Of a DNA stretch of 64,000 nt, positions 5,200-54,011 are shown in pieces. Source of the DNA: Acidobacteria bacterium RIFCSPLOWO2_12_FULL_68_19 (lineage in GTDB: Bacteria; Acidobacteriota; Vicinamibacteria; Vicinamibacterales; UBA2999); NCBI GenBank assembly GCA_001767525.1, contig MELF01000017.1, positions 19,779-83,778 of the forward strand. The letters are read 5' to 3'. Position 1 is the first letter of the stretch. Each line of letters starts with the position of its first letter. The translations under genes and the position numbers were made by a program. The notes beneath the pieces are model-generated. The model saw only the letters and a program-made list of their open reading frames with translations. It did no database searches and had not been told where the DNA came from.

Positions 5200-6027
5200 T
5201 CAGTGCGTCAGCGCGTACAGGATGACGTTGATGCCGACGGCATACCCGTCCGGCGAGAACCGGTAGAAGAATCGCGGATCCTCGCCCTCGCGCTCCCACG
5301 CGTCGGAGATGTCGGTGTTGTGCGTCATCAGCACCATCAGGTTGCCGTGGCGATCGGACACCCCCCGGATCGCCGGCGTGGCGCTGTCTCCGCCGCGCTC
5401 GGATGTGCCGCCTCCGCTCGTCCGCCAGAACTGGATCGACGGGATCTGCGGCAGCGTCTTCACCTCGAACATCGTGCGGAAGATCGGATGATCCAGCGTG
5501 ATCTCCTCGATCGGGTATTCCGACGGCGGCAGCACGCGCGCCAACTGGGAGACCCAGTTGTGCCAGGCGTACGTGCCCCAATAGTCGTCCGCCCAGACGA
5601 ATCCGCCCTTCAGCAGGTAAGTGCGCAGGCCGGCGACCTCCGCGTCGGTGAAGGCGGCGGTGCCGACGTCCTCCATGTGGAGGTACGGACACTGATAGAG
5701 CGCCTCCTCGGTGAGCCGGACGACGACGTGGTCGGGCGCGCCCTGCGCATCCCTGGTCACGCGCGTCTTGGTCAGCTCGGACAGGCGAATCGAGAAGTTC
5801 AGCTCGGCGTCCGGGTAGTCGGTCGACCACCCCTGACCGCCGGCCTCGCGGCGGCCGCTCGTGTACACCGCCCGGCAGAAGTTGAACCCACGGCCGAAGG
5901 TCTCCGGCTGGGCGAACCTTGCGGGATACCCGCGCGGCCCGAACCCGCGGAACTGGCGCCCGAACTGGGCGAAGGTCGAGGTCGCGAGGCAGACGACCAG
6001 GACGATCGCGACCGCGGCTGCCTTCAT
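5200..6027 (-). CDS. DUF4159 domain secreted protein (copy 2)
   Basis: A 275-aa protein with a clean signal peptide (residues 1-20, cleavage near TFA-QF) and a DUF4159 domain. It shares with copy 3 (18429-19292) the segments FCRxxYTSxRRE, LSELTKT, DVGT, LLKGGFVWADDYWGT, and MTHNTDISDAWEREGEDPRFFYRFSP-like ends, so copies 2 and 3 are close paralogs. Its ATG overlaps the stop of the upstream DUF4175 gene by 4 bp, so it is co-transcribed and probably translationally coupled with it. The function is unknown; export and its place beside VWA and MoxR proteins suggest a role in the cell envelope. Confidence 0.87.
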   Translation of the reverse strand: MKAAAVAIVLVVCLATSTFAQFGRQFRGFGPRGYPARFAQPETFGRGFNFCRAVYTSGRREAGGQGWSTDYPDAELNFSIRLSELTKTRVTRDAQGAPDHVVVRLTEEALYQCPYLHMEDVGTAAFTDAEVAGLRTYLLKGGFVWADDYWGTYAWHNWVSQLARVLPPSEYPIEEITLDHPIFRTMFEVKTLPQIPSIQFWRTSGGGTSERGGDSATPAIRGVSDRHGNLMVLMTHNTDISDAWEREGEDPRFFYRFSPDGYAVGINVILYALTH

Positions 6028-9675: not shown

Positions 9676-11715
9676 TCAGGTTTTCGACAGCCGATTCGAA
9701 ATCACGGTATCCGCCCCGAGCAGGAGAATCCCGACGCACAGCAGATACCACCACAGCCGCTGCGACCGCTCCTGCGCTTCGGGCGTCAGCGCCCGGCCCG
9801 TCGCCCCCGCCTGCCGCACCGTCTCAGGCAGGGCGGTCGTCGCCGCGATGATTTCCTTCGGATCCATGGCGGTGAGATCCGACTCCGCCGTGTCGACGTT
9901 GCTCGCCACGACGGCCGTCACCGTATCGCCCGTCCGGCTCCGCAGCTCGTAGAACCCCTGCTCGGTCAGTTCGAGCACCTCGGCGCCCTCTTCGTCGATG
10001 CCGACCCGGCGGCCCGACGGGGTGAGCACCACGCCGCTCGCCTGCGGCGACGCGGCCCCGCCCACTGACGGGTCGAGCACCTGGCCGACGGTGAGCCACG
10101 GCGCCGGTTCCGCGTACGCGGCCAGATGGCGGACGGCCTGGTGGACGAAGGGGAGGTAGACCGGCTTGAGCGGGAAATCGCTCCAGGCCAGATCGAGCGT
10201 CGACGACCACAGCAGGACGCGCCCCGCGCCCACGCGCCGCTCGAGCAGCGCCGGCGCACCCGCGTCGAAGCGCGCGAGCACCTCGGCGCCGGTGACCGGC
10301 TGGACGGTGCGGTACCCGTAGATGCGCGCCGCCGTGAAGTCGCCGCTGCGCGGCGTGCGGAACGGCTCGAACACGGGGTGTCCGAACTCGAGCGCCCCGA
10401 CGCGCGCCGCCTCGCCCCGGCTCCGATCGACGGGCGCCTCCACCGCCGCCGGCAGCAGATCGACGTCCGAGGCCCACGTGGCGCGCGCGCCGGTCGCGAT
10501 GAAGAACCCCCCACCGCCCTCGACGAAGCGCTGCAGGCGACGACCGAGCGACGCCGGCACGGCGACGTCGTTGGCCACGACCACCGAGGCCCGCCGCAGA
10601 TCCTCATCGGAGACCGCATCCGGCTGGCGGAGGGTCGCCTCGAAGCGCGGCGCGTCGCCGATCGCCAGCGCACGCGTCACGTAGAGCGCGCCGCCGGCGG
10701 CGCCGCCGCGGTCGAGGACGAGCACGCGCACGGGCTGGACGGGCGAGACGACGAAGTGGAACACGTTGTCGGCCGCGAGCGCGTCGTCGCCGGCGCGCAC
10801 CGTGCCGCGCATGAAGTTGCCCGCCAGCGTGACCGGCGCAAACGTGATCGACACCGAGCTGTTCGCCTCGACTTCGAGCCGTTCGGTCTGGATCGGCCGG
10901 CCGCCGATCTCGAGCGCGACCTGTCCGTTCCCTAGCGAGCGCGCGCTCCGGTTGACCACGACAGCGGTGACCGCGACGCGCTCCTGGTTCGAGAACGTCG
11001 ACCGCGCCAGCGACACGGCGGTGACCGAGACGTTCGGCCGATCGGCGTCGCCCGTGAGCGCCACCGGACGCAGCGTCGTCGCCGGCGGCAGCCGCGCCCC
11101 TTCCTCGCCGCGCCACCCGGCGCGTTGGAAATCGCTGATGAGCACCACCTCGCGGCGCGGCAGCGACGACTCGGCGAGGATGCTGCCGGCGACCTTGAGC
11201 GCCGGCGCGTAGCGCGTCGCGGCTGCCGACGGCCGGGCGGCGGCCACGGCCGCACGCAGCCGCTGGCGCTCGCCCGCCGGAGCGGACCGCATCGCGATTT
11301 CCGCGCCCGACGAGAAGAGCACGACGGAGCCGCGGTCGTCGGGACCGAGCCCGTCGATCGCCTCCGACGCCGCGGCGCGGGCGCGATCCCAGCGGTCGCC
11401 GAACGTCACGCTGTAGCTCTGGTCGAGCAGCACGACGACCTCTCGCGCGCCGCCGGCGGCGACACCGAGCTCGTCGCGCTCGACGAAGGGGCGCGAGAAC
11501 GCCAGCACGATGAGCGCCAGCGCCGTCAGCCGCACCATGAGCAGGAACCAGTTGTGTATCCGGCGCCGGCGCACCGACTTGTACGGAACGCGCTGGATGA
11601 ACATCAGTGACGGGAAGCGCACGACCTGCTTCTTCTCGCGCTGAATCAGGTGGATCAGCACCGGAATCGCCAGAGCGGCGAGGGCGACGAAGAAGAGCGG
11701 AGCGAGGAAAGACAT
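9676..11715 (-). CDS. BatA-type membrane protein with VWA domain
   Basis: A 679-aa protein with the BatA N-terminal region: two transmembrane helices around a conserved loop (FLAPLFFVALAALAIPVLIHL, then RFPSLMFI...RRRIHNWFLL). A von Willebrand A-like domain follows, whose metal site reads D-Q-S-Y-S (LLDQSYSVTF), matching DxSxS. After it come Ig/CARDB-like repeats, a GATase-like segment (~330-500) and a final transmembrane helix near the C-terminus (WWYLLCVGILLLGAD). It lies between DUF58/MoxR and DUF4175 in the same orientation, the classic Bat order. A 249-bp spacer with a long inverted repeat separates it from the DUF58 gene upstream, unlike the overlapping neighbours. Confidence 0.88.
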   Translation of the reverse strand: MSFLAPLFFVALAALAIPVLIHLIQREKKQVVRFPSLMFIQRVPYKSVRRRRIHNWFLLMVRLTALALIVLAFSRPFVERDELGVAAGGAREVVVLLDQSYSVTFGDRWDRARAAASEAIDGLGPDDRGSVVLFSSGAEIAMRSAPAGERQRLRAAVAAARPSAAATRYAPALKVAGSILAESSLPRREVVLISDFQRAGWRGEEGARLPPATTLRPVALTGDADRPNVSVTAVSLARSTFSNQERVAVTAVVVNRSARSLGNGQVALEIGGRPIQTERLEVEANSSVSITFAPVTLAGNFMRGTVRAGDDALAADNVFHFVVSPVQPVRVLVLDRGGAAGGALYVTRALAIGDAPRFEATLRQPDAVSDEDLRRASVVVANDVAVPASLGRRLQRFVEGGGGFFIATGARATWASDVDLLPAAVEAPVDRSRGEAARVGALEFGHPVFEPFRTPRSGDFTAARIYGYRTVQPVTGAEVLARFDAGAPALLERRVGAGRVLLWSSTLDLAWSDFPLKPVYLPFVHQAVRHLAAYAEPAPWLTVGQVLDPSVGGAASPQASGVVLTPSGRRVGIDEEGAEVLELTEQGFYELRSRTGDTVTAVVASNVDTAESDLTAMDPKEIIAATTALPETVRQAGATGRALTPEAQERSQRLWWYLLCVGILLLGADTVISNRLSKT

Positions 11716-11735
11716 TACTTGGACCTAGACGTCAG

Positions 11736-11934
11736 GTGACAAGTGGACAAGTGGACAAGTGGAGAAGTGGAAAGAAGTAGAAAAGTACGTGTGAAGTACT
11801 GTCGTGTCGGTTCGGCGGCCGTCCGTAGGATCCGACCTGCCGTACTCTGCCACTTATTCTTCCTCTCTCTTTCCACTGTCCCACTCTTCCACTTTTCCAC
11901 TTGTCCACTTGTCCACTTTTCCACTTGTCCACTT
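11736..11934. repeat. Inverted arrays of an 8-bp tandem unit (AAGTGGAC / GTCCACTT)
   Basis: The left arm has four units of the type aagtggac (11741-11772). The right arm has eight units in the opposite orientation (11871-11934), alternating gtccactt and ttccactt. Between the arms is about 100 bp of non-repeated sequence. Transcribed or single-stranded, the arms could pair into a long hairpin. The element fills most of the only large gap (11716-11964) inside an otherwise tightly packed operon; no gene is visible in that gap. Confidence 0.85.
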
Positions 11935-11964
11935 TCTCCGCTTGTGTGTCCTCCTGGCCCGCGG

Positions 11965-12891
11965 TCACCTGAGTCTCAGCTTCTTCTCACGGCCCGTGAG
12001 GTACCTGAACAGCGCGTGATCGAGCGGTTTGGAGGTGTCGAGCAGCGTGTAATCGACCCGCACCTCCGAGAAGCGCTGCTGCAGCGCGTCGATGTGCGCC
12101 CGCACCAGCGACATGTAGTCCCGGCGCATCGCCTCGGGAACCACCGGGATCTGCTCGCCGCTCTCGAGGTCCTCGAACGCCGACGCGCTCGAGAATCCGA
12201 ACTCGATCTCCGCCGGATCGAGGACGTGGAAGACGACGAGATCGTTGCCCCGAAAGCGGAGCGGCGTCACCGCGTCGACCACCGTCTCGGGATCCTCGTA
12301 GAAGTCCGAGATGACGACGAGCACGCCACGCCGGCCGAAGTGCTCCGCCAGCTTGTGGAGCGGCCTCCGGAGGCTGCCCGGCCGCCCCGGCTTCAGCCGG
12401 TCGAGGACGTGCAGCACCGTCTCCATGTGCTTGGCCGAGGGCGGCACGAATTCCACGACGTCGTCGTCGAAGGCGACGAACCCGACGCGGTCGCGCTGGT
12501 GGTGCACCAGGTTCGTCAGGCACGCCGTCAGGATCCGCGCGTAGTCGAGCTTGGTGATGCCGATCGTGCCGTAGTCCATCGACTTCGACACGTCGAGCAG
12601 CACCGAGAAGTTCATGTTCGACTCGGCTTCGTACTCCTTGACGTAGTACCGGTCGGTCCGCGCCCAGAGCCGCCAGTCGACGCGGCGGATGTCGTCGCCC
12701 GGCACGTAGCCGCGGTGCTCGGCGAAGTCGACCGACGCGCCGAAATAGGGCGCCTTGTGCAAGCCGTTGATGAAGCCGTCGACGACCGCGCGCGCCACGA
12801 GCGACAGGTTTCCGATGCGTGCGAGCACGACCGGATCCATGAAGCGCGCGCCGGGAACGGCGCTCGGGCTGTGCGCGTCGAGGAGGCTCAC
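11965..12891 (-). CDS. DUF58 domain protein (VWA-like, Bat cluster)
   Basis: A 308-aa protein. The DUF58 signature is present (PGDDIRRVDWRLWARTDRYY around residues 64-83), leading into a VWA-type fold with an intact metal site D100-V-S102-K-S104. In Bat-like operons such proteins work with the MoxR AAA+ ATPase, probably as its substrate or adaptor. The start is placed at the GTG at 12891 because it overlaps the moxR TGA in a GTGA junction and begins at family-like sequence; the longer open frame upstream is only moxR read in another phase. The gene ends just before the 8-bp repeat element. Confidence 0.9.
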   Translation of the reverse strand: MSLLDAHSPSAVPGARFMDPVVLARIGNLSLVARAVVDGFINGLHKAPYFGASVDFAEHRGYVPGDDIRRVDWRLWARTDRYYVKEYEAESNMNFSVLLDVSKSMDYGTIGITKLDYARILTACLTNLVHHQRDRVGFVAFDDDVVEFVPPSAKHMETVLHVLDRLKPGRPGSLRRPLHKLAEHFGRRGVLVVISDFYEDPETVVDAVTPLRFRGNDLVVFHVLDPAEIEFGFSSASAFEDLESGEQIPVVPEAMRRDYMSLVRAHIDALQQRFSEVRVDYTLLDTSKPLDHALFRYLTGREKKLRLR

Positions 12892-13940
12892 ATCCCGCTC
12901 CGCGGCAGCGGCACCGCCTCGAGCAGGCGGTCCGTCAGCACGTCGGTCGTAAGACCTTCCGACTGCGCGTGGAAGTTGGTGATGATCCGGTGCCGCATCA
13001 CCGGGTGCGCCAGGGCGCGGATGTCCTCGAAGCTGACGTGGTACCGGCCGCTCGTGAGCGCGCGCGCCTTGCCGCCGAGCACGAGGTACTGGGCGGCGCG
13101 GACGCTGGCGCCGAAGGCCACCCACTTCCGCACGTTCTCGGGGCACGTGTCGGACTTCGGCCGGCTCGCCCGCACCAGGTCGAGGGCGTGCCGCATGACC
13201 GGTTCGGCCACCGGCACCTTGCGCACCAGCCGCTGGAACGCGATGAGATCGTCCCCTGTCACCGGGCGCGCCAGCTGCGGATCCTGGAGGGCCGTGGTCG
13301 TGCGCACCACGTCGTACTCCTCGCCGTAGGGCGGGTGGTCGATGACGATGTGGTACATGAAGCGATCGAGCTGCGCCTCCGGCAGCGGATACGTCCCTTC
13401 GAGCTCGATCGGGTTCTGCGTCGCGAACACGTAGAACGGCTCGTCGAGCTTGTAGGTCCGTCCCTGGATCGTCACGCGATGCTCCTGCATCGCCTCGAGC
13501 AGCGCCGACTGCGTCTTCGGCGGCGTCCGGTTGATCTCGTCCGCCAGGACGATGTTCGCGAAGATCGGCCCGGGCGCGAACACCATCTGGCGCCGGCCCG
13601 TCGTCGGGTCTTCCTGCACGAGGTCGGTGCCGGTGATGTCGGACGGCATCAGATCCGGCGTGAACTGGATGCGCGAGAACTTGAGGTCGAGCACGCGCGC
13701 CATCGTGTGGATGAGCAGCGTCTTGGCGAGCCCCGGGGCGCCGACGATCAGACTGTTGCCTCCGACGAACAGGGTGTTCAGCACCTGCGAGATGACTTCG
13801 TCCTGCCCGACGATCACCTTGCGCAGCTCGGCCACGATCTGATTGCGCCCCGCCTTCATCTTGTCGGCGAGCGCGAGGTCATCCGGCGACTCGAGGTCGA
13901 CGAGGTCGCTCAACGTATCGGTCAGCACGCGATCGGTCAT
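12888..13940 (-). CDS. MoxR family AAA+ ATPase
   Basis: A 350-aa AAA+ ATPase of the MoxR family, chaperone-like proteins that act with VWA proteins on metal centres or envelope complexes. Walker A is G67-APGLAK-T74, Walker B is VLADEINR, followed by the MoxR-typical RTPPKTQSALLEAMQE, and sensor motif FATQNP. It overlaps the caspase-like gene upstream by 4 bp (ATGA) and the DUF58 gene downstream by 4 bp (GTGA), so the three are translationally coupled. Cytoplasmic. Confidence 0.95.
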   Translation of the reverse strand: MTDRVLTDTLSDLVDLESPDDLALADKMKAGRNQIVAELRKVIVGQDEVISQVLNTLFVGGNSLIVGAPGLAKTLLIHTMARVLDLKFSRIQFTPDLMPSDITGTDLVQEDPTTGRRQMVFAPGPIFANIVLADEINRTPPKTQSALLEAMQEHRVTIQGRTYKLDEPFYVFATQNPIELEGTYPLPEAQLDRFMYHIVIDHPPYGEEYDVVRTTTALQDPQLARPVTGDDLIAFQRLVRKVPVAEPVMRHALDLVRASRPKSDTCPENVRKWVAFGASVRAAQYLVLGGKARALTSGRYHVSFEDIRALAHPVMRHRIITNFHAQSEGLTTDVLTDRLLEAVPLPRSGM

Positions 13941-29453: not shown

Positions 29454-30959
29454 TCAACTGCCGTCTCGGATCACGCGGCAGGTTTCGATGTCGAAGGTGA
29501 CCTCGCCGAGGGCCAGGCGCGCTTGATCGCGGAGCTCCGTCACGAACTGCACGAACCGGTACACGTCGGCGAAATTGCTGGCGATCCCGAGCGACACGCG
29601 GATGGCGCCGGCGCTCTTGCCGCCGCGGTGCGTGACGGCGTGCAGGAAGCGCGGCAGCGTCATCTCCGGGCTCTGCTCCAGCGCCGCGGCGATGTCCTCC
29701 TCGCTCAATCCCTCGGCCGCCTCGCCGGCGCCGGGGTTGCAGAAGCAGCCCGTGCGGAGCGAGATGCGCCGCTCGGTCGCCAACTGCTCCACCCGGCGGT
29801 AATCGAGAAGGTGCCCGTCGGGATCGTAGAGGTTCATCGTCACGGTGCCGCCCCGGTCCGAGGTCGTCACCGGCCCGTAGATGCGAGCCATGTGGCGCCC
29901 GTTGCCGTGCCGCAGGGCGACGAGCTCGGCCAGGAGCCAGTCCGTCAGACAGCGCACGCGCGTCTGGATCGTCTCCATGCCGACCGCCGCGAGGTGGCGC
30001 AGCCCGATCTCGACGGCGGGAATCGCCAGGTAGTCGAGCGTGCCGTCCTCGAAGCCGGCCTCGCCAGGCGCCAGAATGTGCCGCCGGGCCTGCACGGTGG
30101 CGAAGTTCACGGTGCCGCCGGCGAACCACGGCCGGCGCAGTTTCTCGAGCGCGCGCCGCCGGACGAGCAGGCAGCCGACGCCGGTCGGATAACCGAACAT
30201 CTTGTAGAACGACACGCACAGGAAGTCCGGCTGGACGCGGCCGAGGTCGAGACGGTTCGACGGGACGAACGCCGCCGCGTCGAGGAGGACGTCCCACCCG
30301 TCGGCGTGCGCCTCCTCCACCAGATCCAGCGGGTGCCTCACGCCGGAGAAGTTCGATTGGGCGGGAAAGGCGAACAGCCTCGGCTCGGACGATCCCGCGG
30401 CGCCGCCGAGCAGTGCCGACATCCGCCGGCGATCGACCCGCAACTCCGGGGTCGTGAGCGGCGCATACGTGACAGTCGCCCCTCGGGCGATCGCGAACTC
30501 GCGGATGCCGTTGACCGAATTGTGGTTGTCGAAGGTCAGCAGGTAGTGGCCGCCGGAGCGGAACGGATACGACTCCCCGACGAGCTTGAGGGCGGCCGTC
30601 GCGTTCTGGGTGAAGACGGCCGTGTAGTCGGTTCCCGCATTGAACCACGCCAGCACCGCCCGCCTGCTCTGTTCGACCAGCGCCGTCGTCGCCGACGACG
30701 TCAGGCTGGCCGAGTGCGGGTTGCCGAGGACCTCGGCGTCGAGCAGCGCCGCATGCGCGCGGACCTGCGAGCCCGCGTACAGGCTGCCGCCCGTGTAGTC
30801 GAGGTACACGTGCTCCTGATCGTCGAGCCGCCGGTAGTCGGAGGCGCGCAGCGCATCCAGGATGGCGGTGCTCGCGTAGTCGGGACAGGCCCGCAGGAAG
30901 TCGTCGTACGCGCGAGACCGTGCCGCGTTGCCCGGAATCGGATTCGACGAGCGACTCAC
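29454..30959 (-). CDS. Aminotransferase class V / molybdenum cofactor sulfurase-like enzyme
   Basis: A 501-aa PLP enzyme of the NifS family. The PLP lysine sits in SFYKMFGYPTGVGCLL, and a cysteine-rich motif RTGCFCNPGAGE appears at about residue 390. Both motifs match the NifS-like domain of molybdenum cofactor sulfurases (MOCOS) better than they match IscS or SufS. The C-terminal MOSC domain of eukaryotic MOCOS is missing, so it is a stand-alone sulfurase-type domain. It could provide sulfur to a molybdoenzyme such as xanthine-dehydrogenase-type proteins elsewhere in the genome; no such gene is in this window. It stands alone on the minus strand. Confidence 0.82.
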   Translation of the reverse strand: MSRSSNPIPGNAARSRAYDDFLRACPDYASTAILDALRASDYRRLDDQEHVYLDYTGGSLYAGSQVRAHAALLDAEVLGNPHSASLTSSATTALVEQSRRAVLAWFNAGTDYTAVFTQNATAALKLVGESYPFRSGGHYLLTFDNHNSVNGIREFAIARGATVTYAPLTTPELRVDRRRMSALLGGAAGSSEPRLFAFPAQSNFSGVRHPLDLVEEAHADGWDVLLDAAAFVPSNRLDLGRVQPDFLCVSFYKMFGYPTGVGCLLVRRRALEKLRRPWFAGGTVNFATVQARRHILAPGEAGFEDGTLDYLAIPAVEIGLRHLAAVGMETIQTRVRCLTDWLLAELVALRHGNGRHMARIYGPVTTSDRGGTVTMNLYDPDGHLLDYRRVEQLATERRISLRTGCFCNPGAGEAAEGLSEEDIAAALEQSPEMTLPRFLHAVTHRGGKSAGAIRVSLGIASNFADVYRFVQFVTELRDQARLALGEVTFDIETCRVIRDGS

Positions 30960-53889: not shown

Positions 53890-53912
53890 CCAGCGCGGTT
53901 CACCTCCACGAC

Positions 53913-53986
53913 ACACCGAGACACCGAGACACCGAGACGTGCTGGTCTTGAAAGGAATTCGGCTCGGTGCCTCGGTGTCTCGGTGT
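53913..53986. repeat. Inverted arrays of an 8-bp tandem unit (ACACCGAG / CTCGGTGT)
   Basis: Three 8-bp units acaccgag (53913-53936) are followed by a 26-bp spacer and three units ctcggtgc/ctcggtgt (53963-53986) in reverse orientation, giving a 24-bp stem with one mismatch. The architecture repeats that at 11741-11934, with another 8-mer. It fills the spacer between the tamA-like and SurA-N-like genes. Confidence 0.88.
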
Positions 53987-54011
53987 TCCGTTGGGGCGAA
54001 GTGGGTCCTCA

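Follow-up and report, generated by a model that had tools for sequence, protein, structure and literature searches.

An inverted octamer array between DUF58 and BatA genes as a probable gene-less relative of S23-carrying elements

The spacer between the DUF58 and BatA genes

The window, that is the whole 64,000-nt stretch of Acidobacteria bacterium RIFCSPLOWO2_12_FULL_68_19 DNA that was analysed, contains a run of minus-strand genes in which the DUF58 stop (at 11965) and the BatA start (at 11715) are separated by a 249-bp spacer (11716–11964). The remaining gaps in the same run are 52 bp, 6 bp and one overlap, bearing out the earlier note, made from this DNA alone, in its claim that a repeat array splits an otherwise tight operon. 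The features are, in window positions:

9676–11715, minus strand: BatA gene, next after the element in operon order (domain confirmed)
11716–11964, no strand assigned: whole spacer, filled by the gene-less element, predicted by folding to form one long hairpin on either strand
11736–11787, plus strand: purine-rich arm of AAGTGGAC/AAGTGGAG units, then AAGTGGAA and AAGTAGAA (sequence, tandem repeats, pattern search)
11788–11869, no strand assigned: loop or core and the degenerate inner part of the right arm (DNA search of the source genome)
11870–11935, plus strand: pyrimidine-rich arm of TTCCACTT/GTCCACTT units, the word of the first arm inverted (sequence, tandem repeats, pattern search)
11965–12855, minus strand: DUF58 gene, last before the element in operon order (domain confirmed; 5′ end approximate)
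12888–13940, minus strand: MoxR-type AAA_3 ATPase gene, first of the tight run, given for context (domain confirmed)

The inverted octamer arrays described previously were recovered by a tandem-repeat search (TRF) as (GACAAGTG)×4.2 at 11738–11771 and, inverted, (TTTCCACT)×8.2 at 11870–11935. That the two arms carry the same 8-mer holds loosely: by exact 8-mer count, GTCCACTT occurs 6 times in the window (expected 0.8), with 5 of these occurrences inside the spacer, but many array units are variants such as TTCCACTT and CTCCACTT. The arms, word arrays of ∼50–66 bp, enclose a loop of ∼89 bp without a gene, and the long stem that had been proposed is borne out by folding, since the spacer folds better than all 200 shuffles both as RNA (z = −6.64) and as DNA (z = −6.99). 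Matches to two plant microRNA models of Rfam, at 38.4 bits against a cut-off of 96 and 22.1 bits against 62, were dismissed as long-hairpin matches.

A strong fold on both strands is what would be expected of a regulatory hairpin (attenuator, terminator or mRNA stabiliser) kept by the host between DUF58 and BatA and unrelated to mobile DNA. A transcription attenuator had been considered in the earlier note, but a conserved one is argued against by two observations. No intrinsic-terminator-like site (a short GC-rich stem-loop followed by a T run) was found in 11400–12300, and the DUF58/BatA junction is, by our own reading, tight (from overlap to ∼37 bp) in 20 of 30 sampled loci among relatives, the absence at most sites that the same note had named as one half of what would count against its proposal. 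Short-word arrays, mostly of other words, fill the junction in 8 of the 30 loci (source genome included) and a palindrome in 2, so most of the filled junctions carry unrelated words. The junction of genome G027 holds a short hairpin made of the window's own word.

The palindrome seen at the DUF58/BatA junction in G013 and G001 (L110, L111) is REP-like, of the GCGGACCTGAAGGTCCGCC type. Other word arrays were also noted in the spacer downstream of glnS in two relatives (L095 of G056 and L098 of G007), with a GTTTGAC inverted pair and AGATC-type words.

Dispersal of the word and its occurrence around S23 genes

A strict 20-mer search of relatives had made the element appear rare, and this was overturned by a pattern search. 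The genome-wide count proposed in the earlier note, made with AAGTRGA-N{1,2}-AAGTRGA and with the reversed pattern as control, gave 99 matches at 16 loci of the source genome and 0 for the control, and the element is thus not private to this spacer. The presence of the word at 15 other loci, in unrelated places, also argues against a host-kept regulatory hairpin, which we consider unlikely. Both arms are present at 12 of the 16 loci, with the purine arm first in all 12, and the other four loci are one-armed. The loops of the 12 paired loci span 0–89 bp, all too small for an S23 gene. A DNA search of the source genome with the spacer as query yielded 53 matches with E ≤ 10, and many of these form paired arms. 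Cores differ between copies, except at C17:6379–6499, which matches the window element at 80% over ∼120 nt and has in common with it the stretch with GTCGTGTCGGTTCGGCGGCCG (in 11788–11869). Across the 12 paired loci, arms match their own partners better than permuted ones, the observed sum being reached in 31 of 20 000 permutations, with the own partner ranked top in just 3 of 12 rows. Among the 43 family genomes, 18 contain the window's word.

Arrays of other words were seen as well. A (CCAACTC)×4.7 heptamer array (L003, 1196–1228) lies on contig C17 of the source genome near the element's second copy, ∼25 kb from the window element. At 53890–53995 the window has a second inverted word array, of ACACCGAG-type words in ∼3.8 and 3 copies, which has a strong predicted fold on each strand (z = −5.2 and −5.9) and whose first arm is C-rich, the minority polarity.

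Arrays of the window's word enclose a TIGR02436/PF05635 (S23) gene in three relatives: at G041:C65 (arms 29612–29645 and 30126–30157, gene 29755–30063), at G027:C350 (gene 5230–5538, with one internal stop) and at G008:C184 (gene 2457–2759). The G041 protein matches PF05635 at E = 4e-12 and TIGR02436 at E = 6e-18, and the G041 element folds with its arms paired (z = −5.8). The contig G041:C65 (L196, L344) may be misbinned or a contaminant in the G041 bin, because its pheA shares 93% identity with the G001 pheA whilst the bin's second pheA is only 37% identical; the former is close to the window's genus and the latter distant. In Bacteroidales, two S23 genes occur with the window's exact word, GTCCACTT (2 of 31 word loci). 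The four S23 genes of the source genome are flanked by other words, except for L247, which lacks inverted arms. A conserved inner-end motif shared by gene-less and S23 elements is suggestive only.

An alternative is that these are ordinary short tandem repeats that arose by replication slippage, with the inverted pairing as a by-product and the S23 genes inserted later into repeat-rich spacers. Units do vary both in sequence and in how often they are repeated, four of the 16 loci have one arm only, and for this word the gene-less arrays outnumber the S23-bearing ones. Slippage is harder to reconcile with the consistent polarity of the paired loci (12/12), or with the G008 arms, where two different words stand in the same mirrored order over ∼110 bp.

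The reading of gene-less arrays as remains of S23 elements finds its most direct support at the pheA/trmH junction (trmH being named by our own reading). There is nearly no gap at this junction in L358, an empty site, whereas L344 has an S23-carrying element of the window's word. In L351 the junction holds a related-word element with a decayed S23 match (E = 1e-5), and in L349 a short hairpin that has no gene and is made of the window's word, its array supplying the pheA stop codon. These states could be independent insertions.

Inverted word arrays at S23 loci in general

Of the 43 family genomes, 31 contain TIGR02436 matches, with as many as 17 in one genome, whereas the 14 control genomes contain none. 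The family test covered 90 S23 loci (the best of each of 30 genomes and 60 chosen from the list), of which 87 had enough flank, and a locus passed if its two 400-bp flanks showed inverted similarity above the 99th percentile of 354 control windows. For inverted similarity 70 of 87 passed and 17 failed; for direct similarity 10 passed, and for the reversed but not complemented comparison 1. Gene controls treated by the same flank method gave 0/26 for DUF58 and 0/23 for pheA. Outside the family 36 of 37 loci passed for inverted and 10 of 37 for direct similarity (99th percentile of 310 controls), in a non-random sample of genomes picked for the word, with two loci known beforehand. These outside loci comprise the S23 loci of 14 of the 22 genomes to which the word search had led and eight plasmid loci of named organisms (Gloeocapsa, Bernardetia, Planktothrix, Candidatus Chlorohelix twice, Pseudanabaena, Treponema saccharophilum and Nostoc), and they belong to Bacteroidota, Chloroflexota, Cyanobacteriota and Spirochaetota.

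The arms are tandem (autocorrelation ≥ 0.6) at 61 of the 70 passing family loci and 33 of the 36 outside, compared with 2 of 295 random 50-mers. Their period is mostly 7, 8, 9 or a multiple, and the words vary between loci. G exceeds C in the 5′ arm at 62/70 family and 31/36 outside loci (93 of 106), the exceptions being C-rich arms in 8 family and 4 outside loci and one tie. The prevalence of inverted over direct similarity in the family and of G-rich 5′ arms both argue against slippage, which on balance seems improbable.

A G-rich 5′ strand whatever the word would also result if a reverse-transcriptase or telomerase-like activity had produced the words by extending the ends at a break from a template, with the G-rich strands running inward from both sides. 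PF05635 has been linked to, and described as resembling, the DGR protein Avd (PMC10053308). However, RVT_1 matches occur in 13 of the 43 genomes and show no correlation with S23 number (rho = 0.13), leaving RVT_1 unsupported as a mobiliser, and Avd was not among the PDB sequences reached by the S23 profile, which were 2gsc and 2rld. Templated extension thus appears very improbable.

As a further possibility, the elements could be REP-like hairpins mobilised in trans by Y1 transposases (IS200/IS605 or RAYT-type). The S23 copy number tracks the number of Y1_Tnp matches (rho = 0.67, or 0.60 as a partial correlation controlling for genome size and 0.70 when genus means are used), a lead only, since the correlation may merely reflect mobile-element load. 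The source genome is the richest in the word yet has one Y1_Tnp, and the long arms, with words specific to each locus, do not resemble REP palindromes. Mobilisation by Y1 transposases is given little credence.

Gene context was also compared. Family S23 loci often lie between convergent genes (22 of the 49 contexts with both neighbours called), an arrangement that speaks for the regulatory hairpin. Between tandem genes they show no sense bias (9 versus 11). Family neighbours on the same and opposite strand to S23 number 34 and 22 upstream (4 uncalled) and 17 and 36 downstream (7 uncalled), and in the outside genomes 17 and 2 upstream (10 uncalled) and 16 and 5 downstream (8 uncalled), as read by a strand caller that was correct in 42/42 test windows, all from genes of this window. 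At the eight plasmid loci all 14 annotated neighbours share the S23 direction. A general sense-orientation (intron-like) rule was suggested by the plasmids and other genomes but not borne out by the family counts: an intron-like role is not general because S23 genes of the family are often between convergent genes and without sense bias.

At four of the plasmid loci the S23 genes lie inside operons that resemble defence systems, always in the direction of the annotated neighbours: DUF1156-S23-Swt1 HEPN in L336 and L340, helicase-S23-N-6 methylase in L339 and S23-cas1 in L341.

A candidate class of S23-type elements

The combined sequence comparisons point to an inserted, dispersed and S23-related element rather than a conserved attenuator. 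Full members of the proposed class would carry a four helix bundle gene (TIGR02436/PF05635, S23, the 23S rRNA intervening-sequence protein) between inverted short-word arrays. The window element has inverted arrays of one word with the G-rich, purine arm first, but it is filed as a gene-less derivative only, because no TIGR02436 gene lies between its arms; same-word elements in relatives do have the gene there. Counting against the S23 reading are the too-small loops of the window's word in the source genome, the different words at that genome's own S23 genes, the 17 failing family loci, the exceptions in polarity, the low rank of most own partner arms, and the loci where direct similarity passed as well (10 of 87 and 10 of 37). 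Its identity as a gene-less S23-type element is probable, and the explanation as a whole, that the spacer holds a MITE-like element without a gene, belonging to a class of small S23-type insertions, is adopted with moderate confidence.

According to this explanation, the element would insert and survive in tolerant intergenic gaps, and its gene could be lost while the arms remain complementary. With tandem words, the arms could pair whatever their register, and slippage would leave the stem intact. Once transcribed, the element would form a long double-stranded stem that may be open to cleavage by RNase III, as happens in rRNA intervening sequences, and such a cut would separate the DUF58 and BatA messages. 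RNase III is reported to excise the S23-carrying intervening sequence (IVS) of Coxiella in vitro (PMC4990558); by analogy, the same step at the DUF58/BatA element is proposed tentatively, as somewhat doubtful. Effects of the element on DUF58/BatA transcripts are possible.

A close parallel is the 23S rRNA IVS with an S23 ORF of Coxiella burnetii, a selfish element of sporadic distribution in which the S23/IVP gene likewise lies in the loop of a long terminal-inverted-repeat stem (PMC4990558). That IVS is inside rRNA genes and has a fixed stem (28 bp in Coxiella; PMC4990558), whereas the elements described here are between protein genes and have locus-specific tandem-word arms; the window copy shares the inverted-repeat stem, is located between DUF58 and BatA rather than in an rRNA gene, and is gene-less. 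MITEs, including the minisatellite-bearing MITE of Porphyromonas gingivalis (PMC4596501), are similarly short, dispersed, intergenic and gene-less with inverted ends, and the window element likewise has dispersed gene-less copies with inverted ends (16 loci, 12 two-armed). The ends of MITEs are fixed sequences that match a transposon, whereas here the ends consist of word arrays, and full elements carry S23 rather than a transposase gene; the window's word matches S23-bearing elements in relatives, and S23 is not a known transposase. REP/BIME sequences with RAYT transposases are also extragenic hairpins in many copies but are short fixed palindromes of 20–40 bp with a tag rather than locus-specific word arrays (PMC3733652). 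The window element, with word-array arms of ∼50–66 bp and a ∼89-bp loop, is no such palindrome.

Tandem 7–8-bp units in a spacer are a feature that the window element has in common with STRR-type repeats. Cyanobacterial STRRs are tandem 7–8-bp words in spacers, described as direct repeats without inverted arms or S23. The TAACTGA heptamer repeats are likewise 7–8-bp tandem words in spacers across distant phyla; they are direct repeats apart from one inverted pair, and neither a four-helix-bundle nor an intervening-sequence protein was found mentioned in the accessible part of that paper (PMC4679880). Among the open papers searched none was found on inverted word arrays around S23 genes, though others may exist.

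Some genomes have S23/IVP genes in high copy number, and heptamer and octamer repeats have been recorded between genes without being traced to a source. Genes annotated 23S_rRNA_IVP have been recorded in cas loci, once between cmr3 and cmr2 (PMC3936711), as a CRISPR-linked domain (PMC10910872) and in rRNA insertions of CPR (PMC11270868). There is perhaps an even chance that S23/IVP genes, in at least four phyla besides the lineage of the source genome, mark a class of mobile elements whose ends are locus-specific inverted word arrays with a G-rich 5′ strand, and that gene-less remains of such elements are a main source of intergenic 7–8-bp tandem repeats in bacteria. If S23 elements and their gene-less remains do make intergenic repeats, two puzzles would become one testable question. 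The class would be a DNA element with locus-specific word ends, unlike known transposons, and it could explain the presence of 23S_rRNA_IVP genes in cas loci (PMC3936711) and in CRISPR-linked lists (PMC10910872).
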